34,609 nucleotides of DNA from an uncultured Bacteroidota bacterium (GTDB lineage: Bacteria > Bacteroidota > Bacteroidia > Chitinophagales > Chitinophagaceae), in contig CAISOH010000411.1 of the NCBI GenBank assembly GCA_903887005.1, positions 1 through 34,609 of the forward strand, given 5' to 3'. The notes under the pieces were generated by a model, which worked only from the letters and a program-made list of their open reading frames with translations, made no database searches and had not been told where the DNA came from. Shown here in pieces: positions 1,240 through 22,093 of this stretch. The translations under genes were made by a program, and so were the position numbers. The first letter of the stretch is position 1. Each line of letters opens with the position of its first letter.

Positions 1240-1418
1240 TGGATTATCTGGTGTTAATGATACAATTTATTTGGTCATAAAACTAAAGGATTAATGAAGT
1301 AGATAATTATATAGATGCTCAATTTACTGTTTTCAAAAAACGTAACATTTTATCTCAAAAATTCAGAACCAATTGCCCTTTTAACAATTTAACCCTTTAC
1401 CCAATTAACCCAATCCCC

Positions 1419-1426
1419 TACATTTG
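1419..1426 (+). promoter_or_regulatory. TAnnTTTG promoter box (TACATTTG) of the metH module
   Basis: TACATTTG matches the Bacteroidota -7 element exactly and ends 4 bases before the ATG at 1431, so the transcript would start at or almost at the start codon. No clear -33 element was assigned. Confidence 0.6.
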
Positions 1427-1430
1427 CATT

Positions 1431-2456
1431 ATGAATACAGGATCACAACTGCGGAAACTGCTCAACGAGCGTATTTTGATAATTGATGGTGCCATGGGTA
1501 CTATGGTTCAGCGTTATAGATTACAGGAGCAGGATTACCGAGGCGAAAGGTTTAAAGACTGGCACACAGATGTAAAGGGAAATAATGATCTGCTGTGCCT
1601 TACCCAACCCCACATCATAAAAGAAATACACAAACAATATCTGCAGGCAGGCGCTAATATACTGGAAACAAATACCTTCAATTCCCAGGTAATATCACTG
1701 GCTGATTATGATATGCAGTCACTGGCTTACGAACTGAATGTGGCTGCAGCAAAACTTGCCAGGGAAGCAATAAATGAATTCAAGGAGAACTGCCAATTGC
1801 CAACTGCCAATTGTTTTGTTGCGGGAGCGATCGGCCCAATGAATAAAACATTATCCCTTTCCCCCGATGTAAATAATCCCGGCTTTCGCTCGGTAACTTT
1901 TGATGAGGTGGCTGATGCGTATTATGAGCAGATTAAAGGCCTTGTAGATGGCGGTGTGGATATATTGCTGGTAGAAACAATTTTCGACACGCTGAATGCA
2001 AAGGCTGCCATTTATGCCATCAACAAATACTACAGGGAAACAAAAAAAGAAAAGCTTCCCGTCATGATTTCCGGCACTATTACCGATGCATCAGGACGCA
2101 CGCTTAGTGGTCAGACACTGGAAGCCTTTTACATATCGGTAATGCATGCTAACCCGATAAGTATTGGGCTTAACTGTGCTCTTGGCGCTCAGCAAATGAG
2201 GCCGCATATTGAAGAGCTTTCACAGATAGCAGCATGTTATGTAAGCGCGTATCCGAATGCCGGCCTGCCAAACGCTATGGGTGAGTATGACGAAAGCCCG
2301 GAGCATACAGCCGCTATCATTTCGGAATGGGCAAAGGAAGGACGGGTAAACCTTGTAGGAGGTTGCTGCGGCACCACTCCTGATCATATTGCTGCTATAG
2401 CAAAGGCAATGAAAAACTATGCACCCAGGCCATTGCCGGAATTGATGAGCGCTTAG
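1431..2456 (+). CDS. metH: Methionine synthase, homocysteine-methyltransferase module (MetH N-terminal domain as a separate protein)
   Basis: This is the zinc-dependent homocysteine S-methyltransferase TIM barrel, 341 aa. It opens with [12 protein letters not shown], continues with ETNTFNSQ, and has the zinc ligands: an upstream Cys in GLNCALGA near residue 250 and the pair in GGCCGTTP near residue 307. In cobalamin-dependent MetH this is the first of four modules; the folate, B12 and reactivation modules are absent here. Bacteroidota commonly split MetH in two, but the second gene is usually close by and none is seen in this window. The chain ends cleanly after the barrel, so this is a split protein, not a truncation. 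Residues about 120-128 (NCQLPTANC) look like a repeat-derived insertion (see 1788-1813). The next gene is on the other strand. Start: the ATG at 1431 sits immediately after a promoter box. Confidence 0.9.
1788..1813 (+). repeat. GCCAACTGCCAATTG-type simple repeat inside metH
   Basis: The stretch alternates TGCCAATTGCCAACTGCCAA and lies in frame, encoding NCQLPTANC where homologues have a short, unrelated loop before FVAGxIGP. Related strings occur outside genes at 33541-33610. Confidence 0.6.
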
Positions 2457-2563
2457 ATTTGTTCATATTATCACAAGCTGCTGAAACAGCTGTGCCAATT
2501 ACTTTAGCAATAGGCAAAGACTTTCACCAGGAGTATTAAGTAAAACAGATTCCGGGATATTTT

Positions 2564-3262
2564 CTAAGGATTGTAATTAAACTTAAACCCGATGCCGTGA
2601 ATCGTTTGTAATTTTGCGGCATTTTGCGATTTAAGATACTTCCTCACTTTGGTGATAAATACATCCATGCTTCTGCCCAGGAAGTAATCGTCCTTACCCC
2701 AAACGTTCATTAATATCTCATCACGTTTGAGTACCCGGTTTGCATTGAGGCATAAATAACGCACCAGGTCAGCTTCCCGTTGTGTAAGCTGGTATTCTAC
2801 TTTATCGCTTCTGAGTGTCAGGTTACTATAATCAAATTCAAGATCTCCTATCTTGAAGCTGACAGGACCAATGTCTTCTTTTTTCTTGCTTCGTTTAAGG
2901 AAAACCTGTATCCTCATTTGCAGTTCCTGCAAATTATATGGTTTAGTAACATAGTCATCCGCCCCGCTTTCAAAGCCCGCTATCTTGTCATTATCAAGGT
3001 TTTTTGAAGAGAGCAGAATGATTGGAATATTCTCATTTTTTTTACGAATGCTGTTGGCAAGTTCCATACCATCCTTTTTCCCGGGTAGCATAATATCAAG
3101 CAGGCATACATCGTAAATGTTTTTCATAAACTGGTGCCACGCAACATCTCCGTCCGTACAATGCGTAACTTCATAGTCCTGCTTGAGCAGAAAATCTTTT
3201 ACAACATACCCTAATACAGGGTCATCTTCAACTAATAATATTTTCACTTTGGGCTGAGACAT
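2564..3262 (-). CDS. OmpR/PhoB-family response regulator (RprY-like), orphan
   Basis: This 232-aa two-domain regulator has a receiver at residues 6-120 with the acidic pair D13/D14, phospho-acceptor D56 (CLLDIMLPG), S85 and K107 (VTKPY). A winged-helix DNA-binding domain follows at about 135-230 (QLTQREADLVRYL, then RSMDVFITKVRKYL and the wing IHGIGFKF). It resembles RprY-type regulators of Bacteroidota, which partner with an RprX-type sensor kinase, but no kinase gene is adjacent. The ATG at 3260-3262 is the natural start because the receiver begins four residues later. All phosphorylation residues are intact. The regulon cannot be inferred. A 13-bp inverted repeat lies upstream at 3403-3436, in the spacer shared with the next minus-strand gene. 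Confidence 0.9.
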   Translation of the reverse strand: MSQPKVKILLVEDDPVLGYVVKDFLLKQDYEVTHCTDGDVAWHQFMKNIYDVCLLDIMLPGKKDGMELANSIRKKNENIPIILLSSKNLDNDKIAGFESGADDYVTKPYNLQELQMRIQVFLKRSKKKEDIGPVSFKIGDLEFDYSNLTLRSDKVEYQLTQREADLVRYLCLNANRVLKRDEILMNVWGKDDYFLGRSMDVFITKVRKYLKSQNAAKLQTIHGIGFKFNYNP

Positions 3263-3402
3263 AATAAATAATAAGACTAGTTTTAAAGTTTTCTACCGCT
3301 AATATAGTACTTCTAATTGTCAATGGCTAAAGTAAAAGTAAAAATTAATTATAATAAACCAAAAAGTAGTGACCATTATTTATATAAAAGTCATGTTTGT
3401 TA

Positions 3403-3436
3403 TTATAAATAGCCATTAAATATTGGCTATTTATAA
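3403..3436. other. 13-bp perfect inverted repeat, hairpin or operator
   Basis: TTATAAATAGCCA (3403-3415) pairs with TGGCTATTTATAA (3424-3436) around an 8-base loop in an AT-rich spacer. There is no clean T-run after it on the minus strand and only a weak one on the plus strand, so it may be a poor terminator of the reductase gene or a binding site in front of the response regulator. Confidence 0.5.
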
Positions 3437-3536
3437 TGCTTTTTAGAAATTATGAATTTAGTACCTAAACTTCAGACTGCTAAGATATAGAAATATGATG
3501 AGGATTTGAATAGAATAAAAAAACATTTAGTATGGA

Positions 3537-4625
3537 CTACCGGGCGTCAAAATCTATAATTACTCTTTCTGTGCGGGGATGTGACTGGCAGGTAAGCACA
3601 TACCCTTTTTCCACCTCGCTGTGATCGAGAGCATAGTTGACTTCCATTTCCACTTCACCCTCTGTTACTTTGGCACGGCAGGTGCAGCATACACCGCCCT
3701 TGCAGGCATAAGGGAGATCTGCTCCGTTTTTTAGAGCGGCATCAAGTATGCTTTCGCCCACAAACGGTACCTCCATATCGAAGGTAACGCCGTCAAGCGT
3801 GATACTTACCTTGCTCACAGGCCCGCTCTCATTTTTGTGGCTCTCCACCCATTTCTCATGCACGGCTTTTGGCTGATCAGGAGAAGTGAATAATTCAATA
3901 TGCACATTGGATGAAGGCATACCGAGGTCTGTTAATTGCTGCCGCACGGAAAGTATCATATTTTCCGGGCCACAAATAAACGCTTCGTCTATGGTATTTA
4001 TATCTATCAGCGTTTTGCAAAACTCTGCGCATTTCGCGGCATCTATCCGGCCGCTGAATAAGGGTATTTCTACATACTCACGGCTGAGCACATGGTAAAT
4101 GCGCAGCCGCAGCATATATTTGTTTTTCAGCGCTTCTATAGCCTCCCTGAAAATAATGCTGTTCTTTCCACGGTTGCCATATACAAGCGTAAAACTGCTA
4201 TCAGGCTCGTCTTCAAGCACAGATTTCATAATGCTCATGATGGGGGTAATACCGCTTCCGGCTGCAAAAGCAAGGTATTCTTTATGTTTTGTTTCCGTCT
4301 TTTTGGGTGTGAATTTGCCCATAGGAGGCATAACGTCAAGCACATCCCCTGCTTTCAGTTCGCTATGTGCGTATGTGGAAAATTTCCCTTCTTCCACTTT
4401 TTTTATGGCTACCCGCAGTTCCCCGTCTTTTGGACTGGCGCAAATTGAGTAGGAGCGGCGCACTTCTGCACCTCCGAAATGCCTGCGGAAGGTAAGGTAC
4501 TGCCCGGGGGCAAAACGAAATATTTCAGCCAGTTCGCCGGGTACTTCCAGCGATACCGATACACAATCAGCCGTTTCCGGGCGAACATTTTTTACTTTTA
4601 ACGGGTAGAATTTCAGAACTGACAT
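3537..4625 (-). CDS. PaaE-like ferredoxin reductase (FAD / NAD(P)H / 2Fe-2S)
   Basis: A 362-aa oxidoreductase in the order FAD-binding barrel, NAD(P) domain, C-terminal plant-type ferredoxin. Motifs seen are RRSYSICASP (FAD), FAAGSGITPIMS (nicotinamide), and the cluster loop YACKGGVCCTCRAK with a fourth Cys in YVLTCQSHP, i.e. C-x4-C-x2-C...C. The domain order matches PaaE, the reductase of the phenylacetyl-CoA epoxidase, and related flavodoxin-reductase-type proteins. No paaABCD genes are nearby, so a role in phenylacetate degradation is not supported; it may feed electrons to another oxygenase or desaturase. The start is placed at the ATG at 4623-4625 (MSVLKFYPLKV), because a TATATTTG promoter lies 9 bases upstream. 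An in-frame start 45 bases further up would lie upstream of that promoter. Confidence 0.88.
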   Translation of the reverse strand: MSVLKFYPLKVKNVRPETADCVSVSLEVPGELAEIFRFAPGQYLTFRRHFGGAEVRRSYSICASPKDGELRVAIKKVEEGKFSTYAHSELKAGDVLDVMPPMGKFTPKKTETKHKEYLAFAAGSGITPIMSIMKSVLEDEPDSSFTLVYGNRGKNSIIFREAIEALKNKYMLRLRIYHVLSREYVEIPLFSGRIDAAKCAEFCKTLIDINTIDEAFICGPENMILSVRQQLTDLGMPSSNVHIELFTSPDQPKAVHEKWVESHKNESGPVSKVSITLDGVTFDMEVPFVGESILDAALKNGADLPYACKGGVCCTCRAKVTEGEVEMEVNYALDHSEVEKGYVLTCQSHPRTERVIIDFDAR

Positions 4626-4634
4626 AAATGGCTG

Positions 4635-4642
4635 CAAATATA
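4635..4642 (-). promoter_or_regulatory. TAnnTTTG promoter box (TATATTTG) of the reductase gene
   Basis: It is an exact match on the minus strand and ends 9 bases before the ATG. It rules out the longer reading frame start at 4670 for transcripts from this site. Confidence 0.6.
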
Positions 4643-4762
4643 AGAAAAAACAATCCCAAACTCCTCCCACTGAAAAATCAAAACAAGTGCCGGGCTTCCC
4701 ATCATTTTCTGGTCACAATACCTATAACGTTGAAGATAAAAAACAAAGCTAAATAGATTGTT

Positions 4763-4786
4763 CCCCTTTAGGGGGCAGGGGTTTTG
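4763..4786 (+). repeat. CCCCTTTAGGGG-type dispersed palindrome, copy 1
   Basis: CCCCTTTAGGGGGCAGGGG followed by TTTTG. It shares more than 20 bases with 14339-14361 and, inverted, with 31430-31454; the six bases ATAGAT just upstream also recur at the 14.3-kb copy. It abuts the dgt promoter. Confidence 0.7.
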
Positions 4787-4794
4787 TATATTTA
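4787..4794 (+). promoter_or_regulatory. Near-match promoter box (TATATTTA) of dgt
   Basis: One base off the TAnnTTTG consensus. It ends 4 bases before the ATG at 4799, the same close geometry as at the metH module. Confidence 0.45.
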
Positions 4795-4798
4795 CACC

Positions 4799-6193
4799 AT
4801 GAATTGGGCGTCACTTTATACTACGCAGCGGACAGGCGCACCTGAACGTAAAAATACAGGTGCTGACCTTGTGCGTAATTCTTTTCAGCGGGATTATGAT
4901 CGTATCATTTTTTCTTCCGCTTTCAGGAGGCTGCAAAATAAGACACAGGTTTTCCCGCTGCCGGGCGCCATATTCGTGCATAACCGACTTACGCATAGCT
5001 TAGAGGTGGCTTCAGTAGGGCGCTCATTAGGTAAAGCGGTTGGAGAAAAGATAGCTGCAAAATATGTGGATGAAGGACAGGAATTCACGGAGTTTTACCG
5101 GCATGAATTAGCTTCTGTTATTGCCTCGGCATGTCTCGCGCATGATATAGGCAACCCGCCATTCGGACATTCCGGAGAGGATGCGATCCGAGCGTTTTTC
5201 AACGGTCTCGATGGCGATATGCGCTCAATAATACACGATTCATTGAGCGATAACCAGCGAAAAGACTTTGAGTATTTTGAAGGCAATTCAAATGCCTTTC
5301 GTGTGCTCACAAATAGCTTTAACGAACCCGAACCCGGTGGCTACAAACTTACCTTCTCTACCCTTGCGTCATTGGTTAAATATCCGTGTGCTTCCATAGA
5401 AGGTTTTAATAAAAAGACCGGGCTGATAGCTACAAAAAAATCCGGATTTTTTGATTCGGAGATTGGCACGTATCAGCAAATAGCAAAAGCATTGCAAATA
5501 CCCGCTAAGGAAGGCTACAGCCATGTATATGCCCGTCATCCGTTCGTATATCTTACAGAGGCCGCCGATGATATTTGTTACCGGGTAATAGATTTGGAAG
5601 ATGCGCATCGGCTGCATATCATTTCGCTCGAAACCTTTATGGATATGTTCCTGCCGTTTTTTGAGCAGGAAAAAGAATACTATAAATCGCGGGAATATGT
5701 GGAGAAAAAATTAGCGAAAATAAACGACGACAATCAAAAGGTGCAATACATTCGCGCCCGCTGGATAGGACTGATGATAGAGAAATTATCTGATTTATTC
5801 ATGGCGCATGAAGCGGAATTACTGGGCGGCACACTTGAAAAAGACCTGCTCAAATGCCTGCCTGCCGGGGATCGTGCATTGATAGACCGGATAAACGATT
5901 TTTCTGTAAAGAAAGTATATAACTATAAAGCGGTTGTGGAGATAGAAATAGCGGGCTACAATGTAATAGGCGGGCTGCTGAAAGAATTTATACAGGCAGT
6001 ACTTTATCCGCAGCATACCAAATCGGGTAAGCTGATAAAGCTGGTATCATCCCAGTTCCCGGTAACTCAGGACAGGAAAAATGTGTATCAGGATATTCAG
6101 TCTCTTTTAGACTTTATAGCCGGTATGACGGATCTCTATGCCATAGATATCTATCGTAAAATAACAGGAATAACAATCCCGGAGATTAGGTAA
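4799..6193 (+). CDS. dgt: Deoxyguanosinetriphosphate triphosphohydrolase (HD family)
   Basis: A 464-aa HD-superfamily dNTP triphosphohydrolase, which cleaves dGTP to deoxyguanosine and triphosphate. Visible motifs are the N-terminal RNSFQRDYDRIIFSSAFRRL with KTQVFPL, the first metal histidine in NRLTHSLEV, the HD pair in ACLAHDIGNPPFGHSGEDA, and the later Asp in EAADDICYRVIDLEDA. The length is right for the bacterial family. The ATG at 4799 is preferred over the upstream TTG at 4784 because the latter overlaps the promoter and a dispersed repeat, and MNWASLYTTQR is a normal start for the family. It is a single-gene unit: the reductase is divergent upstream and queA starts 200 bases downstream. 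Confidence 0.93.
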   Translation: MNWASLYTTQRTGAPERKNTGADLVRNSFQRDYDRIIFSSAFRRLQNKTQVFPLPGAIFVHNRLTHSLEVASVGRSLGKAVGEKIAAKYVDEGQEFTEFYRHELASVIASACLAHDIGNPPFGHSGEDAIRAFFNGLDGDMRSIIHDSLSDNQRKDFEYFEGNSNAFRVLTNSFNEPEPGGYKLTFSTLASLVKYPCASIEGFNKKTGLIATKKSGFFDSEIGTYQQIAKALQIPAKEGYSHVYARHPFVYLTEAADDICYRVIDLEDAHRLHIISLETFMDMFLPFFEQEKEYYKSREYVEKKLAKINDDNQKVQYIRARWIGLMIEKLSDLFMAHEAELLGGTLEKDLLKCLPAGDRALIDRINDFSVKKVYNYKAVVEIEIAGYNVIGGLLKEFIQAVLYPQHTKSGKLIKLVSSQFPVTQDRKNVYQDIQSLLDFIAGMTDLYAIDIYRKITGITIPEIR

Positions 6194-6234
6194 TTGGTTA
6201 AAGAGTTAATGGGTTAAAAGGTTACTAAGTTAAA
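6192..6234 (+). repeat. Degenerate GGTTAAAG-type repeat
   Basis: A run of overlapping GGTTAA / GTTAAAG / GTTAATG words follows the dgt stop. Similar strings lie at 31486-31520 and, in reverse complement, at 1376-1412 before metH, so this is a dispersed intergenic repeat type. It is followed by TTGCGTCCTTGCGCCTTTGC at about 6328-6347, another simple-sequence type. Confidence 0.5.
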
Positions 6235-6393
6235 CGATGCACGAAAATTATTACTTTATTAATTGTCCCAACAGCGTCTGGATTTGCGGTCTTGTTTTTT
6301 TAATTTATTTGTTATCCATAATACCCTTTGCGTCCTTGCGCCTTTGCGAGAGAAAATTATTTCAATTTTTGACATTTGATTTTTGACTTAACA

Positions 6394-7611
6394 ATGAACC
6401 CAAAGAACCTGCGCATTGAAGACTATACCTACCCGCTCCCGGATGAGCGGATAGCTAAGTATCCGCTTGCAGCACGGGATGCATCGAAGTTGCTTGTTTA
6501 TAAGGAAGGGATCATTTCTGAAGATGTGTATAAAAACATATCGAAGCATATACCTTCCGATACACTAATGGTTTTTAACCAGACCAAAGTAGTTCATGCA
6601 AGGCTGTTATTTAAGAAACCTTCAGGCGGAGTAATAGAGGTTTTTTGCCTTGCGCCTCACAAGCAATATGACGGCATTCAAACCGCCATGCTGCAAAAGG
6701 GAAAAGTGTATTGGGAATGCCTGATAGGTGGCGCCAGTAAATGGAAGCACGGCATGGTGCTGCAGCTTACGAACGAAGATCCCGGATTCACTTTGTCAGC
6801 AACTATTACGGAACGCAACCCCGGTGCCTACACACTGTGCCTGGAGTGGGATAATGAAGACCTAACTTTCGCGGAGGTATTGCATTATGCGGGTAAAGTG
6901 CCATTGCCGCCCTATCTGCACCGCGATGCGGATGCGGATGATGAAACCCGCTACCAGACATTGTTCGCAACAGAGGAAGGAAGCGTTGCAGCGCCAACGG
7001 CCGGACTGCATTTTACAAATGAAATACTGCAAAGCCTTGCGGCAAAAAATATAGATACTGCATTTCTTACGCTTCATGTGGGCGCTGGTACATTTAAACC
7101 GGTGAAGAGTGCAACAATGCAGGAGCACGACATGCATGCCGAATGGATAGATGTAAGTCTCATCACCATTCATAAATTAATTGATAGCCTGGAGAAAAAA
7201 ATCGTAGCTGTCGGCACTACTTCAATGCGCACATTGGAAAGCCTGTACTGGATAGGGAACAAACTCAGCAATGGAAGCAACATTGACCTGCACAGCATTG
7301 CCGTATCCCAGTGGGAACCATATGAAACCATGCAAACCTGCAGCCCGGAAAAAGCGCTTACCGCTTTGGCAGCCTGGATGGAAGCGCATCAGCTAAACAA
7401 GCTTATCACACGCACACAGATATTAATTGCACCCGGATATACATTCAGAATTGCGAAAGGATTGGTTACCAATTTTCATCAGCCGCAATCAACATTATTA
7501 TTGCTGGTAGCAGCGTTAATTGGTGTGGATTGGCGGAAGGTTTATGAGTACGCATTGACGCATGATTTCAGGTTTTTGAGTTATGGTGATGGATGTTTAT
7601 TAATGGCTTAA
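6394..7611 (+). CDS. queA: S-adenosylmethionine:tRNA ribosyltransferase-isomerase
   Basis: A 405-aa QueA, which moves the ribosyl group of SAM onto 7-aminomethyl-7-deazaguanine in tRNA to give epoxyqueuosine. Motifs include the N-terminal YTYPLPDERIAKYPL, LMVFNQTKVVHARL, GKVPLPPYL, EEGSVAAPTAGLHFT, LHVGAGTFKPV and VAVGTTSMRTLES. It is somewhat longer than the roughly 350 aa of E. coli QueA, with insertions in the middle as is common in Bacteroidota. The ATG at 6394 is used: the conserved part begins within ten residues, while the TTG six codons upstream would add only MIFDLT. No other queuosine gene is adjacent. Confidence 0.94.
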   Translation: MNPKNLRIEDYTYPLPDERIAKYPLAARDASKLLVYKEGIISEDVYKNISKHIPSDTLMVFNQTKVVHARLLFKKPSGGVIEVFCLAPHKQYDGIQTAMLQKGKVYWECLIGGASKWKHGMVLQLTNEDPGFTLSATITERNPGAYTLCLEWDNEDLTFAEVLHYAGKVPLPPYLHRDADADDETRYQTLFATEEGSVAAPTAGLHFTNEILQSLAAKNIDTAFLTLHVGAGTFKPVKSATMQEHDMHAEWIDVSLITIHKLIDSLEKKIVAVGTTSMRTLESLYWIGNKLSNGSNIDLHSIAVSQWEPYETMQTCSPEKALTALAAWMEAHQLNKLITRTQILIAPGYTFRIAKGLVTNFHQPQSTLLLLVAALIGVDWRKVYEYALTHDFRFLSYGDGCLLMA

Positions 7612-7703
7612 TGTCTTAATTGCTCAATGGCTCAATTAATGTGAAAATGTGGGAATGTGAAAAATGTGATGTTGCTCAATGTTCTGAACCACAACGGATG
7701 ATC

Positions 7704-8111
7704 TTACCCTACCGGATGAAAATAAGGCATGGAGACAATCATTTCCCTACATTCATCTATAGTCTGTGATTCGGCAAACAATACCCATTGCCCGGTATAG
7801 CGCATAAAGGAAATATGGCAGCAATTTTTCCCGATAAACTGTAACCTGACAAATTTATCTTCAAATTCACCGGACAACTGGCGGTCTTTTCCATATCTGT
7901 ACTTCTCGCACAGATAAAAATAATTACTGCGCCAGCTTGGGTAAATGTCAACCAGGTAATTCATTTCTAAGTTGGGATTTTCATTTATGTACTCCTTTTT
8001 GAAATCCTCAATGATTTGTGAAAAGGATGCCGTGATTTTATCCTTATCATATTGCGTCAATTTGGGGTTACCTTTTGGTGGGCCGGTTTTGACCCAGTAT
8101 CCTGCAGCCAT
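7704..8111 (-). CDS. Hypothetical protein, 135 aa
   Basis: I do not recognise this family. The protein is soluble and aromatic-rich (MAAGYWVKTGPPKGNPKLT at the N-terminus, YPSWRSNYFYLCEKYRYG in the middle, YTGQWVLFAESQTIDEC near the C-terminus). There is no signal peptide or membrane helix. The start is placed at the ATG at 8109-8111, since further upstream the frame becomes K/F-rich low-complexity sequence that looks non-coding. It is divergent from the dinD pseudogene, with about 88 bp between the two starts, so it may have belonged to the same accessory segment. Reading-frame character is convincing; function is unknown. Confidence 0.6.
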   Translation of the reverse strand: MAAGYWVKTGPPKGNPKLTQYDKDKITASFSQIIEDFKKEYINENPNLEMNYLVDIYPSWRSNYFYLCEKYRYGKDRQLSGEFEDKFVRLQFIGKNCCHISFMRYTGQWVLFAESQTIDECREMIVSMPYFHPVG

Positions 8112-8199
8112 AGTAAATTGATTTTTTGCAAAATAAAATAATTTTGGTAATTTTTTATTTTTGTATGATTTCGGATAAAAGGAAAATAGAAAACAAACC

Positions 8200-8487
8200 A
8201 TGAAAAGTGAACAGATACATCATTTGCTGCAGCAATTTGAAAATGCCTGTTACAATTATTAATGTATTGAGTGCTGGAGCGCCCGAGAAGTTCAAACTAT
8301 ATTAGGTTATACGAAATGGGACAACTTTGTTAAAGTAGTTGACAAAGCCAAAACAGCGTGTGAAACCAGTGGTGTAGCGGTTCCTGACCATTTTCCCGAT
8401 ATCGGGAAAATGGTTGAACTTGCCAAGGCGGCCCAAAGGGAAAGAGAAAATGTTTACCGGTTACCATTGCAACCAGATCTCATCTGA
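8200..8487 (+). pseudogene. dinD: DinD-like DNA-damage-inducible protein, broken remnant
   Basis: From the ATG at 8200 the frame gives MKSEQIHHLLQQFENACYNY and then a TAA at 8260-8262. The same frame resumes at once with CIECWSAREVQTILGY and TKWDNFVKVVDKAKTAC, then DHFPDIGKMVELAKAAQRE. This is the N-terminal order of DinD (Bro-N-like domain). After AAQRE similarity stops, and the frame closes at 8485-8487. An intact DinD is about 270-280 aa; this is about 95 codons with one internal stop. It is thus a nonsense mutation plus loss of the C-terminal two thirds. Recognition is from family memory, not a search. Confidence 0.75.
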
Positions 8488-8510
8488 GTGACCTGGCTGC
8501 AACAGCAATG

Positions 8511-8993
8511 TTACTTTTTCAAATACAGCATCTGGCCCAGGTGGCTCGACAGATGAGTGGTTCTGCCTAATACCACATTCAGCCGGTTGCGGTGCGGCTC
8601 TTTCGCGAAATCCTCTTCAGATACTGATGTGTGCCTCTGAAACCATTCGCTTGCTGTAAGGCTTTTAAAATGTTTCTCCAGTTTTGCATTTGTTTCATTC
8701 CAGAAAGTGCGCAGTTCACCGGCTTCCGGCATCACCTTCCCCGACTTGTCCGGACTGGCAAGGAAAATGTCATTGTAATGCGGATAAGCCTGGTCCTCAA
8801 AACCAAGCAATGGCAGCATCCGGTCGTTTACTGCGGCCAGATGCCCCAGCAGATATATCCCGCTGTTGCGGCCGGGAGCCGCATCACCACGCAGTTGTTC
8901 GTCCGTCAGTGAGTTCAGTAGTTTGTTAGTATTGGCAACAGTGCTGTACCAGTTATCCAGCACCATCTTCACGAATAATTCCTGTTGTTCCAT
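8511..8993 (-). CDS. DinB-family protein (four-helix bundle, putative metal enzyme)
   Basis: A 160-aa DinB/YfiT-like bundle. Helix 1 has LVNW-like spacing (LDNWYSTVANTNKLLNSL), GIYLLGHLAAVNDRML carries the first metal histidine, and the C-terminal HLSSHLGQMLYLKK supplies the HxxxH-type pair. These positions match the three-histidine site of the superfamily. Proteins of this type include thiol-dependent transferases with bacillithiol or mycothiol; the substrate here cannot be told. The ATG at 8991-8993 (MEQQELFVK) is chosen, as upstream codons are not conserved in character. Despite the name it is unrelated to the polymerase DinB or to DinD. It faces the dinD remnant tail to tail, with only 23 bp between. 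Confidence 0.8.
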   Translation of the reverse strand: MEQQELFVKMVLDNWYSTVANTNKLLNSLTDEQLRGDAAPGRNSGIYLLGHLAAVNDRMLPLLGFEDQAYPHYNDIFLASPDKSGKVMPEAGELRTFWNETNAKLEKHFKSLTASEWFQRHTSVSEEDFAKEPHRNRLNVVLGRTTHLSSHLGQMLYLKK

Positions 8994-9103
8994 TTTGTTG
9001 TTGCTTTTATTGTGATGTGAAAATACACTTTGCAAAAACAGTTAGGTTGATATGGGTATAGTTGTTTTTTATTGACCGTTATATCGCTTCTTATCTTTTA
9101 CTT

Positions 9104-9187
9104 TTCGCAATAAATCCATTGCTATCTCTACTTCGCAATAAGATTATTGCGAAAACATTTTGCCAATAAACTTATTGGCATTGCAAT
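9104..9187. repeat. Three 28-bp units, each with a CAATAA-nn-TTATTG palindrome
   Basis: Units start at 9104, 9132 and 9160. Unit 2 holds TTCGCAATAA-GA-TTATTGCGAA (perfect), unit 3 TGCCAATAA-AC-TTATTGGCA (perfect), and unit 1 a decayed GCAATAAATCCATTGC. The three symmetry centres are at 9114.5, 9142.5 and 9170.5, exactly 28 bp apart. This is typical of a stacked operator for a dimeric helix-turn-helix repressor. The array lies about 260 bp upstream of the STAND-type pseudogene, with no intact gene next to it. Confidence 0.7.
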
Positions 9188-9449
9188 TCATAAAATATCC
9201 CCACCTTAATATCTCCCCAAGCACATTTAGCACTAAAGATTTCAATTCAGATCAAAACCCCTTTGTGGAAGAAATATTGAAAACAGGTATTGAGATAGGA
9301 GCATGGCAGAGATTGCGCCCTCATCAAAATAATTGGGGACAATGTTGAATTACTTTTATTATTTTTTTGGAAGATTGTGGTTAACGGTTTTCAATTACTG
9401 TTATTAAAAAATGTACATTTATATAATTGAATAACCTAAATAGTACAAA

Positions 9450-10903
9450 ATGTATTCTATAAATGAAGTAAATATCGACCATATTAACCGACTCAACGAT
9501 ATCCAACTTTCCAAACTTCTTCATTGTTTATTGAATAATGAAGCAGAAAAAAATTCGCTGGAAAGCTATAAAATTTGTGTGCCTTTAAAAATTACTGTTG
9601 CAGATGGAGGAGAAGATGGAAGAATAGAATGGGTCGGACATCCAAAGGCAACTACAAAGTGGCTTAAAAATAAAACTTGCCTATTCCAAAATAAGGCGAC
9701 TGACTTGCCTCCATCAAAGTGTTTTGAAGAAATATTAGAAATTGAAGTAAAGAACCAACCTAGAAAATTAAAAACGCAAATTGAAGAAATAATACACTTA
9801 GATGGCAGATATATTCTCTTTACAAATAGAAATCTAAACAATAAGCAAATAACAGAGAGAATCAACGAATTTAGAAGTGCAGCTTATGAAGCTGGAAATA
9901 TTAAGCATTCGACTTTTGAAGTTGAATGCTACGATGCAAATTTAATTAAAGATTGGACAAATGATTATGTTAATGCAGTAACACTTGTTCAAGAATTTAA
10001 TGATATACATAGACCAGGCTTTATGACATGGGAAAGATTAGAAAATACTTCTAAAGCCCATGAAAATGAATATCAGAAGGATGAAACAATTTCTAACAAT
10101 ATTAAATTAATTGAAGAATCTATTAAGATTGAAAGAGTTTTACGCATTTCCGGGCACTCGGGTTTAGGTAAAACAAGGTTAGTTATTGAGTCTTTTAGAA
10201 ATAGTAATTTAAAAAAATTAGTCGTTTATTATGATTTAATGGGTGTTGATAATATCGCTGAAATTAAGAACTATATTATATCACATCAAGATATACAAGA
10301 TGGAATTATTATTGTTGACAATTGTGACGCTAAAAGCCATAACATCCTATCCGCATTAACAAAAACAAATGGCAGTTTAAAAATCATAACAATTGGATTG
10401 GATGACAATAATTCTATTACTGATGTCAAGATAAAACTCGAGAGAAATAATCAGAGAGAAATTGTAAAACAAATCATTGTAAAAAAATTGAATTCACACA
10501 CCCAATCTGATATTGAATATGTCAATAAAATTTCAGAAGGTTACCCATGGATGGCAATTAGATTTTGTGATTCGATTCTAAAAGAAGGGATGTATGAACT
10601 AAGCAAATATCCTATGGATGAATTTATCAAGAAATTAATTTTCGGAGAAAGACAAGACAATAATGAAGAGTATAATGTAACTACGGCGATGATGATGATG
10701 TTCTAAGAGAATTATCTGCAAACATGGGAACTTTTGGAATGACAGGAACTGTTATCCCATACTATGAAGAACAAGAAAAATTATTAAAGCAATTGCTCAC
10801 GCATAAGCATGAAAATGTTAGAAGATGGGCTCAAAATAAATTAGATGAAACTCAAAATAGAATTAAAATTGAAAATTTAAATGAAGCGCATAGAGGGCTT
10901 TAA
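9450..10903 (+). pseudogene. STAND-type P-loop NTPase with PD-(D/E)xK-like N-terminus, internally deleted
   Basis: The first piece (9450-10706, 418 codons) has an N-terminal region with PLKITVADGGEDGRIEW and CLFQNKAT, which looks like a restriction-endonuclease-type D...(E/Q)xK core. It then has ISGHSGLGKTRLVIESF (Walker A) at about residue 233 and DGIIIVDNCD (Walker B). At EEYNVTTAMMMMF it runs out of frame through a GATGATGATGATG tract. A second piece in another frame (about 10676-10903) encodes SANMGTFGMTGTVIPYYEEQ and THKHENVRRWAQNKL, then a Glu/Asn-rich end, a HEAT-like C-terminus typical of large STAND defence ATPases. Those proteins usually exceed 1000 aa, so several hundred residues between the NTPase and the C-terminus are gone. 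Low GC and the setting suggest transfer. That this was an anti-phage gene is inference. Confidence 0.65.
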
Positions 10904-18098: not shown

Positions 18099-18149
18099 GT
18101 GCGGGTGGAGGGACTCGAACCCCCATGCCTCGCGGCACCAGATCCTAAG
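18099..18149 (-). repeat. Left attachment-site copy: displaced 3' half of tRNA-Leu
   Basis: Identical over 51 bases to 22012-22062. On its right the sequence turns at once into ACGCGCC, not tRNA, so it cannot form a tRNA. Confidence 0.9.
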
Positions 18150-18248
18150 ACGCGCCTAAAAGTGCTCCAAACGCATAAAAATCAATACTTTTTATAATTC
18201 TATTTTATTAATGTTGCTATTTTGATAGAATAACTGAAACATCAGTTC

Positions 18249-18270
18249 TGTGCGATTTTTTGTGCAATTT
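18249..18270 (+). repeat. Putative integrase arm sites, left end
   Basis: CTGTGCGATT and TTTGTGCAATT in tandem, about 110 bp before the recombinase start. The same word occurs twice at 21928-21951 in the same orientation. Just to the right, a minus-strand TATCTTTG box (18285-18292) points toward the left end of the element. Confidence 0.45.
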
Positions 18271-18380
18271 TTTTTTAAGGTGGCAAAGATAAAACAATTT
18301 GCTGGAGTTAAACAAAAATTAGAACACCAGACTATTTCTGTCGTCTGAATCTGCTACACTTGCGATATAAGTTAATAGTG

Positions 18381-19622
18381 ATGAAGAAAGCAGAAAATTC
18401 TAAAGCCGGTAGTGTCTATCCTTTTCTGGATGCCAGAACACCAATGAAAAATAGTAACATGTTACCGGTTAAGTTGTCCGTTAATATTAAAGGGGAAGTA
18501 TTCCGGGTAGGATTGAAACTCTCTGCCATACCGGAAATTTTTGATAAAGCCATTTCATCAAAAGGTTCCATAACTAACGAAGCGAAAAAGCTCAAAGCAG
18601 AAATTGATATATATGTGAATAAAGCGAAAGAAATTTTTGAGCAGTACCCTACAGCTAACCAAAAAATGTTTATTAACCTGTTTAAATCAGGGAGTGAATT
18701 GAAAGTGAGCGGTAAAACTGACATGGCGGTTCTGTTTCAAAGCAAAATAAATGAATTGATTGCAGAGGATAGGGCCGGTAGCATAAGTTTCTATGAATCG
18801 GCTTTAGCGACTTTCCAGAAATTCAGAAAGACGTTTTATCTTGAGGACGTAACGGTCGAGTGGCTCAAAGCATTCCGTGCCTGGTACATGAACAAAGGCA
18901 ATTCAAATGCAACGGTGCAAATACAAATGCGTTGTGTTAGACACATATATAATCGCGCAATTAAGGATGGTTATATTTCACAGGGGATGTACCCTTTCAA
19001 GGACTTTACAATCGGGACTGCATCGAAATCTAAAAATGTACTCTATCCGCAACAGGTAGAAATGCTATGGAATTATAAACCACTAATTTCAGAACAGATC
19101 AGATCAAAGGATTTTTTTATACTGTTATATCTCCTGAATGGCATGAATATAAAAGATGCTTTGAGCTTGAGAGGGACTCACATCAAAGGAGATATGATTT
19201 CGTTCGTCCGGGCTAAAACATCAAAAACCAATTCGGAAACGAAAGAAATAATTGTTTATCTGCACCCCGAAGCAAAACGAATCATGGAAAAATACGGCAG
19301 CCTGAATACAAACGACTATATTTTTCCATATTTCAGGGGTACTAAATCGGACATTGAACGAAAGAGGGTAAAAGATTTAATAAGCCACAACTTAAACAGG
19401 ACTATAAGGCCAATCGGTGTTGCAATTGGATTACCGATGCGCTTGACATTAAACCTGGCTCGCCATTCGTATGCTACCAGGTTAAAAATAGATGGAGTTT
19501 CTACAGCGTTTATAAGCGATGCGCTTGGTCACAGCACCGGTGCCATTACAGCCCACTACCTCAAAACGCTGCCGGACGACCAATATAGAAGGATTGGCGA
19601 GACCTTACTCAACTTTGAATAA
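18381..19622 (+). CDS. Tyrosine recombinase (phage-integrase family, Bacteroidota type)
   Basis: A 413-aa integrase. It has an N-terminal arm-binding region (MKKAENSKAGSVYPFLDAR onward), a SAM-like core-binding domain (about 105-210, FYESALATFQKFRKTF ... VRHIYNRAIKDG), and a catalytic domain at about 220-410. In the last, LLNGMNIKDALSL stands where many members have RGxN, so the first catalytic Arg is replaced by Asn, a variant I know from other Bacteroidota integrases. Then come NLARHSYATRLKIDG with the second Arg, LGHST and the nucleophile region HYLKTL. It lies 230 bp inside the left attachment repeat, as expected for a tRNA-targeting element. The ATG at 18381 is preferred over a TTG at 18360 that overlaps a promoter-like TACACTTG (18355-18362). 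Confidence 0.92.
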   Translation: MKKAENSKAGSVYPFLDARTPMKNSNMLPVKLSVNIKGEVFRVGLKLSAIPEIFDKAISSKGSITNEAKKLKAEIDIYVNKAKEIFEQYPTANQKMFINLFKSGSELKVSGKTDMAVLFQSKINELIAEDRAGSISFYESALATFQKFRKTFYLEDVTVEWLKAFRAWYMNKGNSNATVQIQMRCVRHIYNRAIKDGYISQGMYPFKDFTIGTASKSKNVLYPQQVEMLWNYKPLISEQIRSKDFFILLYLLNGMNIKDALSLRGTHIKGDMISFVRAKTSKTNSETKEIIVYLHPEAKRIMEKYGSLNTNDYIFPYFRGTKSDIERKRVKDLISHNLNRTIRPIGVAIGLPMRLTLNLARHSYATRLKIDGVSTAFISDALGHSTGAITAHYLKTLPDDQYRRIGETLLNFE

Positions 19623-19662
19623 CTGCTGACGTGCATTAATCAAAATACGACCAACGAACGTA

Positions 19663-19851
19663 TTAGTCCTCCTTTAAAATGAAGTCAATCTTGTAGTCAC
19701 GTATTTCGCCTAAATTCTCCTTAATGAAATCATCCCACGGGAGTATTTTACCAGTTCCTATATCGCAGACTACAATACCTTTGTCGGTAATAGTTATCTT
19801 CTTTTTTCTAAAAATCTCACGAGGAAGCTCGTTGGTAAGATATTCAAACAT
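19663..19851 (-). CDS. Hypothetical protein, 62 aa, element-borne
   Basis: The small acidic/basic chain MFEYLTNELPREIFRKKKIT, then ITDKGIVVCDIGTGKILPWD and DYKIDFILKED, reads like a compact beta-rich domain. No family is recognised and no membrane segment is seen. It is convergent with the recombinase gene, with 40 bp between their ends, inside the tRNA-Leu element. An ATG and stop frame it cleanly. It could be an excision or control factor by position, but nothing in the sequence shows this. Confidence 0.5.
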   Translation of the reverse strand: MFEYLTNELPREIFRKKKITITDKGIVVCDIGTGKILPWDDFIKENLGEIRDYKIDFILKED

Positions 19852-19903
19852 TTTTCAAGCATTTTATATGTAAGTGAATCAATTTAACCCCCAATGGGTA
19901 TTT

Positions 19904-20200
19904 CTATATTTGCATCCCACGCCACGTTCCCATATACGCATCACCTTCCCAAAACGGCCTCAGTTCCGCCTGACTCAACGTAACCGGATTTTCCTCGAAA
20001 CTCCAGAAGATTGCTGGTCGTTCTTCGAGTAATTCCAGAGACCTTATGAAAATGTCCGATGACCTAATTTCTATATCATCTTCCAAGCGATGACCAGCTC
20101 TCCATTGTCTTGCTTGCTCAGTAGTACACTGATGCAATTGAATTAAATTTAGACGAGTATTTGAAAGAGTATATTCGTAACGTGGTTTTTCTTGCAACAA
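19904..20200 (-). CDS. Unknown protein fragment, element-borne
   Basis: The frame encodes HQCTTEQARQWRAGHRLEDD, SSDIFIRSLELLEERPAIFW and TLSQAELRPFWEGDAYMGTW, which looks like genuine protein. The only start is a TTG at 20198-20200, and the first 25 or so codons overlap the ATPase fragment on the other strand. That makes it probable that the true 5' end is missing and that a rearrangement joined the two genes near 20110-20160. The end is also odd: the stop falls in the complement of a plus-strand TATATTTG promoter box (19905-19912). No family recognised. Confidence 0.4.
   Translation of the reverse strand: MLQEKPRYEYTLSNTRLNLIQLHQCTTEQARQWRAGHRLEDDIEIRSSDIFIRSLELLEERPAIFWSFEENPVTLSQAELRPFWEGDAYMGTWRGMQI
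19905..19912 (+). promoter_or_regulatory. Orphan plus-strand promoter box (TATATTTG)
   Basis: An exact consensus followed by CATCCC, the usual context of a Bacteroidota gene start, but no plus-strand gene begins here. It may be the surviving promoter of the lost 5' part of the ATPase gene, or drive it over the intervening fragment. Confidence 0.35.
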
Positions 20201-20559
20201 ACGAAGGAATATTGATTGAATTTAATGATGAAAATCCAGAACCTTATATAGGGAAGTTTAGACCGATTGAAATAAATATTTTGGTAGATAATCTTTTTAG
20301 CAACTCAAAAAAGGCTGGAGCCACAGAATTTAAAGTTGGAATAAAACGTCAAAATAATAATGTTGTAATCTCGTTTTCAGATAATGGGAAAGGAATCGAA
20401 GAAAATAAATTAAAGGACATATTCAAATATGGATATACTACTTCCGAGGGATCTGGCATTGGTTTATTTCATGTAAAAGAAATAATTCAGAGAATAGGTG
20501 GAAAACTTGAAATTGAAAGCGAAGTTAAAAAAGGAACAACTATAAAAATTATTTTATGA
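20125..20559 (+). pseudogene. GHKL (histidine-kinase-type) ATPase domain, N-terminally truncated
   Basis: The frame is open from just after a TAG at 20122-20124; the first start codon is a TTG at 20161. It encodes one HATPase_c domain: N-box NILVDNLFSNSKKAGA, G1 box FSDNGKGIEENKL, F-box-like IFKYGYTTSEGS, G2 box GSGIGLFHVKEII, and the usual IGGKLEIESEVKKGTTIKI end. There is no H-box helix with a phospho-accepting His. The residues before the TTG (AIELNLDEYLKEYI) still look like kinase linker, so an upstream part is lost. The stop overlaps the start of the receiver gene by 4 bp, so the two were translated together. By family memory, such ATPases with a small receiver partner occur in paraMORC/m5C-methylase conflict loci; this is inference. 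Confidence 0.7.
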
Positions 20560-20954
20560 GGAAATTAAAAGTTTTATGGGTCGAAGATGATCTTAATTTT
20601 GGTAATTCAATTCATTTCAGAATTGGCGATGATTGTAATGAAATGGGGATTGAGTTGGAAGACCCTGAGCTTCTTCAAAATGGGAATTATGTTTGGGATA
20701 CGATAAGAGATCTGAAACCAGATATTATTATGATGGATCATAATCTTGAAGACGTTCGAATCAATGGTTCCAATGTAATTGTTGAAATTAGATTTTTGGA
20801 TAATGAAACACCAATAATTTTTTATAGTTCTGAAATGGACGGAAGATTAATGAAATTAGTTGAAGGTGAGAATAAAGTTTATACTTCGACAAGAGCTGAC
20901 GTACATTCTGAATTGCTCCGCCTAATTAGAAAAGAATTTGCACCTGGCGGATAA
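20556..20954 (+). CDS. Stand-alone receiver-domain protein
   Basis: A 132-aa CheY-like domain with no output domain. Seen are the acidic pair in LWVEDDLNFG (D11/D12), the phospho-acceptor D61 in IIMMDHNLEDV, and the switch Ser in IIFYSSEMDG. The conserved Lys before the last helix is not found: that region reads NKVYTSTRADVHSELL. Its function may therefore not follow the normal phospho-switch. The ATG overlaps the stop of the GHKL gene (ATGA), indicating an operon. Its 3' end overlaps the convergent glycosylase gene by 33 bp. Confidence 0.8.
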   Translation: MRKLKVLWVEDDLNFGNSIHFRIGDDCNEMGIELEDPELLQNGNYVWDTIRDLKPDIIMMDHNLEDVRINGSNVIVEIRFLDNETPIIFYSSEMDGRLMKLVEGENKVYTSTRADVHSELLRLIRKEFAPGG

Positions 20955-21578
20955 TGTGCATTCTGTACAAAGTGGTTTATGTGCTTTACAAACCAAGCCA
21001 GCATAGTCAAGTATAGCCCAATTAATTTCTTTTGATTTAGGATGATTTACAATCATTAAGGAAAGCCTTTGTAGGTATGGATCATAACGAATGTCAGCCT
21101 TAGTCCGTGCTCCAAAATACCTTTCCAACAATCTCGCCATATTCACATCAAGTAGAGGACTTGGTCGTTTCAAAATAATTAATTCAACAGCATTTGAAAT
21201 ATATTGCCCAAGGAAAGGAATTGACTCAAGTTCATCTCTTTCCTTGGGTAATCTACCCTTGCGTTTTACCATCTCGTTCGCTAAACTTTGGAGTCGTTTT
21301 GCTCTTTGCTTGTATAATCCAATGGGCTTTAAGTATTTTTCTAACGACTCAATATCTGTAGTCATCAGTGATTTCCAATCAGGAAAATCTTTAATAAAGG
21401 AATTAAAAAAACGTGAAACGGTTTCAGCTTTTGTTCTTTGAAGTAATGTCTCTGCAATAATTATCTGGTAATTGTTCAATTTACTCATGCGCCAAGGAAA
21501 TTTACGCCCGAACTTTCTATACCAATCGAGTAAAAAAGATTGCAATTCGCTAATATTTTCTGTCGTAATTTCTGCCAC
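20922..21578 (-). CDS. HhH-GPD DNA glycosylase, Mig-like (G:T mismatch thymine glycosylase), [4Fe-4S]
   Basis: A 218-aa endonuclease III/MutY-superfamily enzyme. Seen: FPWR near residue 27, ETLLQRTKAETVSRFF (MutY has LQQT), IGLYKQRAKRLQSLA, a degenerate helix-hairpin-helix IPFLGQYISNAVE, the catalytic Asp in LLDVNMARLLERYF (D144) and cluster ligands C197-x6-C204-x2-C207-x5-C213. The residue after the hairpin is Tyr (Y126), where endonuclease III has Lys and MutY Ser. Tyr with this Asp is the pair of Mig.MthI, which removes T from G:T mismatches made by deamination of 5-methylcytosine. It lacks the C-terminal MutY domain. It is therefore more likely a G:T than an A:8-oxoG enzyme. A TAAATTTG promoter lies 3 bases before a GTG at 21576-21578, chosen as start. 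Mig genes usually travel with an m5C methyltransferase; none is in the element. Confidence 0.82.
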   Translation of the reverse strand: MAEITTENISELQSFLLDWYRKFGRKFPWRMSKLNNYQIIIAETLLQRTKAETVSRFFNSFIKDFPDWKSLMTTDIESLEKYLKPIGLYKQRAKRLQSLANEMVKRKGRLPKERDELESIPFLGQYISNAVELIILKRPSPLLDVNMARLLERYFGARTKADIRYDPYLQRLSLMIVNHPKSKEINWAILDYAGLVCKAHKPLCTECTLSARCKFFSN

Positions 21579-21581
21579 GTA

Positions 21582-21589
21582 CAAATTTA
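21582..21589 (-). promoter_or_regulatory. TAnnTTTG promoter box (TAAATTTG) of the glycosylase gene
   Basis: An exact minus-strand match. It ends 3 bases before the GTG start, which implies a leaderless transcript, and it overlaps the alternative TTG start at 21582-21584. Confidence 0.5.
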
Positions 21590-21860
21590 CGATTTAATGT
21601 TACGCTGAATTGAACTCTATCTATATAACCCACCGTAAGTAGAGGACGAGGTCAATATTTACACGTTGAAAAACGTAATGTAATTTTTAGAGACATGCCG
21701 GATGGCAGAATCAGTACTGGTGAATTTCATTCACCTTGAGACGCGCCAAACAATAACAGCAAATTACAATAGGAAACGCGAAGAACCTTGACTGTAGGGG
21801 TTTTCAAGAGAGCATATGACCTTGCCAAATCATGAGATGTGCAATGCAAGTAATGAAAAA

Positions 21861-21887
21861 GCGGGTGTGGTGAAATGGCAGACACAC
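21861..21887 (+). repeat. Inverted 27-bp copy of the 5' half of tRNA-Leu
   Basis: The 27 bases are identical to the first 27 bases of tRNA-Leu (complement of 22067-22093), covering the acceptor strand, D-arm and start of the anticodon stem. They then diverge. The copy is in the opposite orientation, 180 bp from the real gene, with no promoter box before it. Confidence 0.85.
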
Positions 21888-21927
21888 TGGACAATCAATC
21901 AATTATACTTAAAATAAAAAATAGTGC

Positions 21928-21951
21928 TTTGTGCAATTCTTTGTGCAAATC
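21928..21951 (+). repeat. Putative integrase arm sites, right end
   Basis: TTTGTGCAATTC and TTTGTGCAAATC are tandem 12-bp near-repeats, about 60 bp inside the right attachment repeat, matching the pair at 18249-18270. Confidence 0.45.
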
Positions 21952-21960
21952 GTTTTTATA

Positions 21961-21998
21961 TAAAATAAAAAAGCAGTTACAAATAAATGTAACTGCTT
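21961..21998 (-). terminator. Terminator downstream of tRNA-Leu
   Basis: AAGCAGTTAC and GTAACTGCTT form a perfect 10-bp stem with an 8-base loop. On the minus strand it is followed by TTTTTTATTTTA. It lies 15 bases past the tRNA 3' end, inside the element, so the element brought a replacement terminator. Confidence 0.8.
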
Positions 21999-22011
21999 GA
22001 TTACTAACTGA

Positions 22012-22062
22012 GTGCGGGTGGAGGGACTCGAACCCCCATGCCTCGCGGCACCAGATCCTAAG
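22012..22062 (-). repeat. Right attachment-site copy within tRNA-Leu
   Basis: 51 bases identical to 18099-18149. It ends at the anticodon loop, the usual crossover area for tRNA-targeting tyrosine recombinases. Confidence 0.9.
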
Positions 22063-22093
22063 TCTGGTGTGTCTGCCATTTCACCACACCCGC
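22013..22093 (-). tRNA. tRNA-Leu, anticodon UAG
   Basis: Read on the minus strand: acceptor GCGGGTG pairing with CACCCGC, D-arm TGGTGAAATGGCAGACACA, anticodon stem-loop CCAGA-CTTAGGA-TCTGG with anticodon TAG, a variable arm (TGCCGCGAGGCA-type hairpin, class II), and the T-arm GGGGGTTCGAGTCCCTC-like segment. CCA is not encoded. It is intact although a mobile element uses its 3' half as attachment site. Confidence 0.95.

Follow-up and report, generated by a model that had tools for sequence, protein, structure and literature searches.

Remnant of a probable C5-methylase, paraMORC and receiver conflict system with a Mig-like glycosylase on a decayed integrative element in a Chitinophagaceae tRNA-Leu gene

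Contig CAISOH010000411.1 of an uncultured Chitinophagaceae bacterium (Bacteroidota; assembly GCA_903887005.1), analysed here over a window of 34,609 nucleotides, carries a decayed 3.9-kb integrative element inserted in a tRNA-Leu gene. Within this element lie the tail of a paraMORC/histidine-kinase-like ATPase, a receiver domain and a Mig-like HhH-GPD glycosylase (Table 1). The window probably holds the decayed remnant of a conflict system built from a cytosine-C5 DNA methylase (C5 methylase), a paraMORC ATPase and a receiver, in which the glycosylase would have been an accessory for the repair of deaminated 5-methylcytosine (m5C), the role otherwise filled by Vsr. m5C deaminates to T, and the G:T mismatch that this leaves is a target of both Mig and Vsr. 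A first-pass annotation of the same DNA had placed an ATPase, a receiver overlapping it by 4 bp and a convergent glycosylase on a mobile element, and had suggested a remnant or variant of a methylase-linked paraMORC system. Pfam and the reading frames agree with it on the three genes, a tyrosine integrase and perfect 51-bp direct repeats of tRNA-Leu sequence agree with it on the element, and the gene neighbourhoods of relatives lend strong support to the suggested origin of what is, in the window, a truncated copy.

What ties these three genes together elsewhere? The best 80 of 114 glycosylase relatives (one genome per species, 43-74% identical) were used to compare loci, with neighbour families called by profiles or seeds made from these same loci; many of the contigs end close to the gene. 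A C5 methylase lies within 10 kb of the glycosylase or is fused to it in 55 of the 80, in four of them only at 9.1-9.4 kb, a recurrence of the kind that the first-pass annotation had proposed to seek by tabulating neighbours over this distance. Six relatives (L096, L105, L107, L113, L115 and L118, the last confirmed by Pfam) are one-frame fusions of glycosylase and C5 methylase. A paraMORC gene is present in 20 of the 80 loci, a fraction that gives no rate for paraMORC systems since the loci were picked by glycosylase similarity. Ten of these 20 have a receiver-HEPN-like gene, eight a receiver-like gene with a caspase-like one, one a lone receiver and one a broken paraMORC beside MvaI. An uninterrupted run of open reading frames (ORFs), counting those of at least 100 amino acids (aa), unites the glycosylase with a methylase, a paraMORC and a receiver or receiver-like gene in 18 of the 20 loci. 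The exact arrangement seen in the window, with paraMORC, receiver and convergent glycosylase, recurs in L064, where the receiver also stands alone, and a similar one with receiver-HEPN genes is found in L051, L057 and L075. Homologues of the methylase, paraMORC, receiver, caspase-like and MvaI genes were found in none of 20 housekeeping MutY regions (18-20 kb) that served as control. Apart from Bacteroidota, the cassette occurs in Aminicenantes, Planctomycetota and Deltaproteobacteria, according to record names.

The paraMORC gene of the window is incomplete. Intact relatives are about 750-900 aa long and, by alignment, the window ATPase is their end, cut at about 20125-20135: it is 43% identical to residues 607-751 of the 752-aa L038 protein and 40% identical to residues 609-748 of the 757-aa L064 protein. 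Pfam finds an N-terminal HATPase_c_3 and a C-terminal HATPase_c domain in L038, L039, L057 and L064, and the window retains only the latter of these two domains by which a paraMORC/histidine-kinase protein is recognised. Where the HATPase homology starts, the homology of a Shedu fragment on the opposite strand ends; this fragment was absent from the first-pass annotation, and only the truncated C-terminal part of Shedu (SduA) is present in the element. The absence of a phospho-accepting His, on which the first-pass annotation had remarked, is real and results from truncation: all 21 longer relatives in a 22-row alignment have a His in the DHp-like helix that precedes the CA domain, 83 alignment columns ahead of the first window residue. 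The idea of an ATPase lacking this His by design was rejected.

The receiver, in contrast to the truncated ATPase, looks whole when aligned with its relatives. It scores 28.1 bits against PF00072, slightly under a gathering threshold of 30.2, and its match, like those of the HATPase and the glycosylase, is not due to chance. In L038 and L064 the paraMORC gene is followed by a receiver (137 and 141 aa), and identity to the window receiver is 28% for L064, 23% for L038 and 30% for L081 (overall range 23-31%). The conserved receiver Lys is indeed absent, as the first-pass annotation had pointed out; in alignments inspected by eye, however, most relatives have Arg in its place, so the missing Lys is no sign of decay, and the notion of a dead receiver was dropped. 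A search of 296 genomes of the phylum gave six weak matches besides the window, and the receiver was not found in plasmids (tblastn, threshold 0.01). Clustering grouped the window receiver with the receiver-HEPN set, and its partner label of plain receiver was assigned by hand.

The identification of the glycosylase as Mig-like, also made in the first-pass annotation, is supported by a tree, by a match to a solved structure and by two residues. Among solved structures in the PDB, the G-T mismatch enzyme Mig (1KEA) matches best (7.8e-30, as against 6.9e-25 for MutY and 1e-14 for EndoIII). In a tree of 90 rows, the restriction-modification (R-M)-type glycosylases including Mig split from six MutY proteins at 100/100, which places the window protein outside the MutY clade. 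Neither outcome that the first-pass annotation had named as refuting its reading, a lack of common neighbourhoods or a place within the MutY/endonuclease III clades, was observed. Nth and the partial rows L094 and L114 were omitted from this tree, as were L036 and L037, which duplicate L046 and L048; the branches of L040 (Mig) and L041 are long and their exact position is unsure, and the program warned of long-branch meeting at L041. All 86 R-M-type rows have Arg (84 rows) or Lys (2 rows) at position 50 and Ala at position 53, where the six MutY have Gln and Val or Ser, respectively. The pair Tyr128/Asp146 (Tyr126/Asp144 in the first-pass annotation, which had taken it as a marker of Mig) is found in 86 of 86 R-M-type rows, the window included, but also in six of six MutY from this bacterial family, and is therefore not diagnostic of Mig. 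Four Cys residues (199, 206, 209 and 215) fit the [4Fe-4S] pattern, and the 3' end of the gene overlaps that of the receiver by 33 bp. Mig, the thymine/uracil-DNA glycosylase of the Methanothermobacter plasmid pFV1, is built alike, with an HhH-GPD domain, [4Fe-4S] Cys, equivalents of Glu45, Arg50, Ala53, Tyr128 and Asp146, and no MutY C-terminal domain. A C5 methylase and a restriction endonuclease lie near Mig on its plasmid, whereas the window copy has lost the methylase (no C5 methylase was found in the window). The two glycosylases are 29% identical and differ further in that the partners of the window's relatives include paraMORC-receiver systems. Judging from this kinship, G:T would be the substrate of the window enzyme. 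It would also be a third enzyme for its host, since the genome holds two further HhH glycosylase genes, by eye MutY (371 aa) and Nth. Values of dN 0.18 and dS 1.57 (nonsynonymous and synonymous divergence) against its sister L042 record constraint over that history, which is no proof of present function.

To view the system independently of the glycosylase, the L064 paraMORC protein was searched against 395 genomes of the phylum, giving 10 places in 9 genomes, a sample not fully independent in that it includes three genomes of one genus, two places in one genome, and L183 and L184, alike by eye. All ten loci have a C5 methylase, and seven carry a receiver-HEPN-like gene and three a receiver-like and caspase-like pair; the paraMORC gene of L187 is split over two ORFs. 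In L180, Vsr (the sole Vsr candidate checked by Pfam) and an HNH_2 protein are part of the paraMORC gene run, without a glycosylase. This sampling points to a core of methylase, kinase, receiver and effector with an optional repair gene, either Mig-like or Vsr. Vsr repairs G:T from deaminated m5C, as the window glycosylase may do, although its fold is unrelated and it nicks DNA rather than removing the base.

HEPN and caspase-like domains are effectors in conflict systems, and the intact relatives hold a candidate of each kind. The receiver tail of about 180 aa keeps R-x4-H in 13 of 13 rows and is predicted to be mainly helical with short strands, which is compatible with HEPN; a fold search was dominated by the receiver domain. 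The neighbouring gene of about 220 aa has GHG and Cys in eight of eight copies. Its AlphaFold2 model (pLDDT 83.8) has as top Foldseek match the SAVED-CHAT filament protein 8tl0 (E 1e-4, the sole one below 0.001), with caspases next in the list, mixed with other folds, at about 8e-3; the superposition of these matches is loose, with query TM-scores of 0.37-0.47. What lies between the paraMORC and caspase-like genes is termed a receiver-like gene on weak grounds (6e-5 for L068).

How might such a system work? The methylase would mark self DNA, and the paraMORC ATPase would sense unmarked DNA or loss of the mark. A phosphate or conformational signal might then pass from its His/CA module to the receiver, which would release an effector, either the HEPN-like tail or the adjoining caspase-like protein, and so halt the cell. 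The glycosylase would remove T from the G:T mismatches left by deaminated m5C at methylase sites. The intact relatives may, as a tentative proposal of somewhat less than even probability, be abortive infection systems guarded by C5 methylation, in which a DNA-watching paraMORC kinase acts through the receiver on a HEPN-like RNase or caspase-like protease if the self mark is absent or has been lost, and a Mig-like glycosylase or Vsr repairs the mutational cost. The intact cargo of the element would have comprised the methylase, a paraMORC with HATPase_c_3, a His-bearing DHp-like helix and HATPase_c, the receiver and the putative G:T glycosylase. One or more deletions would then have taken about 600 residues from the start of paraMORC, the N-terminal part of Shedu and the methylase, together with any restriction enzyme, joining the paraMORC and Shedu stumps at about 20125-20135. 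The switch of the window cannot work as such; the glycosylase may yet be active, without an evident partner methylase.

Several observations weigh against this account of the window or of its intact relatives. No methylase was found by the 10-kb search in 25 of the 80 loci, and nine of these methylase-less loci (L073, L076, L083, L093, L095, L097, L100, L101 and L106) have about 10 kb on both sides. Among the paraMORC loci, L045 has three intervening ORFs in place of the full block, and in L047 the paraMORC is broken, with no methylase or receiver before the contig end. A Mig-like glycosylase is present in none of the ten paraMORC loci sampled without regard to it, and is to that extent optional. 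The effector candidates are similarly exposed: the receiver tail has no profile match to a solved HEPN and reaches only E 0.23 with Pfam DUF4145, the caspase-like protein has no sequence match, Pfam finds no receiver in the receiver-like gene that precedes it, and no effector is visible beside the receiver in L064 or in the window. Lastly, the nearest relative of the window glycosylase, L042 (73-74%), belongs to an MvaI/BcnI R-M system and not to a paraMORC one, which leaves room for a secondary origin of the window's pairing.

This last point feeds the alternative that a defence island brought together two unrelated leftovers, a Mig-like glycosylase of an MvaI/BcnI-type system and the tail of a paraMORC-receiver system of different origin. 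Like the sister L042, the closely related L043 and L048 are MvaI-type, and defence islands mix, a Shedu fragment with no match among the ORFs of the 80 loci (phmmer, 1e-3) being present here too. An MvaI/BcnI enzyme is found in 12 of the 80 loci, including L047, and a MORC/helicase type in six. As raw counts on the tree, at least 7 partner switches occurred between paraMORC and MvaI (32 labelled rows) and 12 across four partner classes (43 rows), counts that omit the window, L047 and unlabelled rows and take a receiver-HEPN gene alone as paraMORC type. We nevertheless regard this alternative as unlikely in view of the uninterrupted blocks, of L064 with the window's orientation, and of L047, which joins MvaI, a broken paraMORC and the glycosylase in one locus and indicates that one ancestral cassette can carry all of them. 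The same exchange of partners qualifies the linkage of a two-component-like switch to base excision proposed in the first-pass annotation. The two are linked as gene neighbours, probably through the shared methylase, because the glycosylases also occur with MvaI/BcnI enzymes or fused to methylases and have changed partners repeatedly; a tighter coupling sits poorly with that exchange and with the ten paraMORC loci that lack a glycosylase.

Could the short HATPase-receiver pair itself be a functional mini-switch, its CA domain phosphorylating or remodelling the receiver to control the glycosylase? CA domains of histidine kinases bind ATP, and here the alignment shows intact ATP-binding motifs, both frames are open and they overlap by 4 bp. 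The first start codon of the HATPase frame, however, lies at 20161, inside the homology, the 5' end abuts the truncated Shedu gene, and a search of 394 genomes of the family at E<=1e-20 gave no relative made up of a CA domain alone: besides the window, it matched two long frames, open over 756 and 936 codons and each with two HATPase domains. Such a mini-switch is highly improbable. Scarcely better placed is the idea that the glycosylase is an anti-phage effector removing modified phage bases, or a restriction glycosylase. It travels with defence genes, and base-excision restriction enzymes exist (PMC10273834, in the passages available), but it groups with Mig and adjoins or is fused to C5 methylases, from which a repair role is predicted; the attack on modified phage DNA offered as an alternative in the first-pass annotation found no support here. 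Matches to phages came to 29 records, with identity of at most 32.5% among the 20 matches listed, and a scan of viral contigs gave one relative (L190). An R.PabI-type restriction glycosylase fold was set aside, the protein being HhH-GPD by Pfam and PDB sequence matches, and the PADLOC label "Type II nicking endonuclease" of a model that matches the glycosylase was not adopted. That the protein is an ordinary MutY-type adenine glycosylase can be almost wholly discounted: TIGR01084 (mutY) is its best NCBIfam model, but at 135.4 bits it falls far below the cut-off of 286.5, and the protein has 220 aa, lacks the C-terminal 8-oxoguanine domain of MutY and parts from MutY in the tree and at Arg50/Ala53.

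The remnant of a methylase-paraMORC-receiver system preferred here is of a kind already known, and the relatives represent a variant with a HEPN-like or caspase-like partner and a glycosylase. Pairs of HEF_HK and Response_reg_2 proteins with C5 methylases, and with MvaI_BcnI, HNH_2 and Vsr downstream of the receiver gene, have been described (PMC8011034, as far as its available text goes). The relatives share with these systems HATPase_c_3, the DHp-like helix, HATPase_c, the receiver and the C5 methylase, and differ in a receiver with mostly Arg for Lys, in the HEPN-like tail or caspase-like neighbour and in the Mig-like glycosylase; the available main text makes no mention of glycosylase, HhH, HEPN, caspase or CHAT. 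The models PF19191 and PF19192, whose presence in the Pfam copy used is unconfirmed, gave no match to the window HATPase or receiver, to the paraMORC proteins of L038, L039, L057 and L064, or to the receivers or receiver-like proteins of L038, L039, L049, L061, L064 and L067. ParaMORC GHKL ATPases in R-M operons with cytosine methylases and Vsr were reported earlier (PMC2292703; Iyer et al., 2008), in a text whose accessible portion contains neither "receiver" nor "glycosylase". Fusions of Ymh-type HEPN domains to paraMORCs in R-M neighbourhoods are likewise on record (PMC3710099, in part), and the combination of HEPN and paraMORC therefore has a precedent. The passages available from PMC10273834 and PMC12839542 contain no such paraMORC-receiver-glycosylase system. 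In a literature search that left most subscription journals and bioRxiv preprints outside, no paper was found on paraMORC with a glycosylase, or on four or more of HEPN, receiver domain, cytosine methyltransferase, GHKL and caspase; papers that combine four or more of HhH-GPD, cytosine methyltransferase, Vsr, glycosylase and defence concern plants by title.

The element shows the features of a tRNA-gene integrative element, namely an integrase, direct repeats, an intact tRNA and an empty site in kin. The empty site comes from one informative locus (L126) among nine of congeners, where the order is MgtE, tRNA-Leu, 62 bp and trigger factor (tig); in L129 the tRNA-Leu is present with trigger factor not within reach, and in the other seven loci tRNA-Leu was not found. 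G+C is 36.0% in 18150-22011 as compared with 41.0% in the remainder of the window, and 31.0% in the HATPase and receiver genes. Relatives of the integrase occur in 8 of 194 other genomes of the family (E<=1e-70), and the repeat pair just inside the ends may represent integrase arm sites. The inverted tRNA-Leu copy near the right end is perhaps the scar of an earlier recombination.

Table 1. Features of the integrative element and its tRNA-Leu target, in window coordinates
Feature	Position	Strand	Basis or remark
Left direct repeat (att-like), copy of tRNA-Leu 3' part	18099-18149		51 nt, 100% identical to 22012-22062
Repeat near left end	18249-18277		83% identical to 21930-21958
Tyrosine integrase (Phage_int_SAM_5 + Phage_integrase)	18360-19622	+	Pfam
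62-aa ORF	19663-19851	-	no Pfam, NCBIfam or PADLOC match
Shedu (SduA, DUF4263) C-terminal fragment	19904-~20134	-	PADLOC PDLC00395, E 3.8e-19, model positions 138-210 of 212
HATPase_c (CA) domain, last ~145 aa of truncated paraMORC/histidine-kinase-like protein	20125-20559 (frame open throughout)	+	PF02518, 2e-19
Stand-alone receiver domain	20556-20954	+	PF00072, 2.5e-6
Mig-like HhH-GPD [4Fe-4S] glycosylase, intact frame	20922-21584	-	PF00730, 4.3e-16
Inverted copy of tRNA-Leu 5' half with 4 nt of its upstream flank	21857-21892	+	36 nt, 94%
Repeat near right end	21930-21958		partner of 18249-18277
Right direct repeat, within tRNA-Leu	22012-22062		51 nt, perfect match to left repeat
tRNA-Leu, insertion target	22012-22093	-	ARAGORN

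Some further observations concern methylases and glycosylases outside the element. The one other C5 methylase gene found in the host (L144) sits among genes that by eye resemble those of phages, and ORF starts put a GroEL-like ORF at a distance of about 8 kb. Two C5 methylases of MvaI-type loci (L036, 5327-7543; L037, 6314-8539) have an N-terminal stretch like Arm-DNA-bind_5, a domain otherwise typical of Bacteroidota tyrosine integrases, with a Pfam score that falls short of the 22.6-bit cut-off in L036 (21.2 bits) and exceeds it in L037 (24.4 bits); methylases of similar length in L042, L043, L056 and L074 match that of L036 best. L111 (5515-8355) encodes a 946-aa frame with the glycosylase domain at the C-terminus, from about residue 756, and a first part without Pfam match. 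Upstream of the L098 glycosylase, a large set of three genes (684, 522 and 1845 aa; 574-9739) has relatives in several other loci, and its 1845-aa protein gives HerA/TrwB-like matches.

The window itself is a wreck, and its interest rests in the intact relatives, with their recurrent cassette of methylase, paraMORC, receiver and glycosylase. In this sample, two residues set R-M-borne glycosylases apart from MutY, the name that automatic models give them. If the abortive infection proposal is true, an output would be supplied for the two-component-like R-M systems reported in 2021, and if the relatives work in the manner sketched above, self-marking of the R-M type would be coupled in them to two-component-like signalling and cell shutdown.

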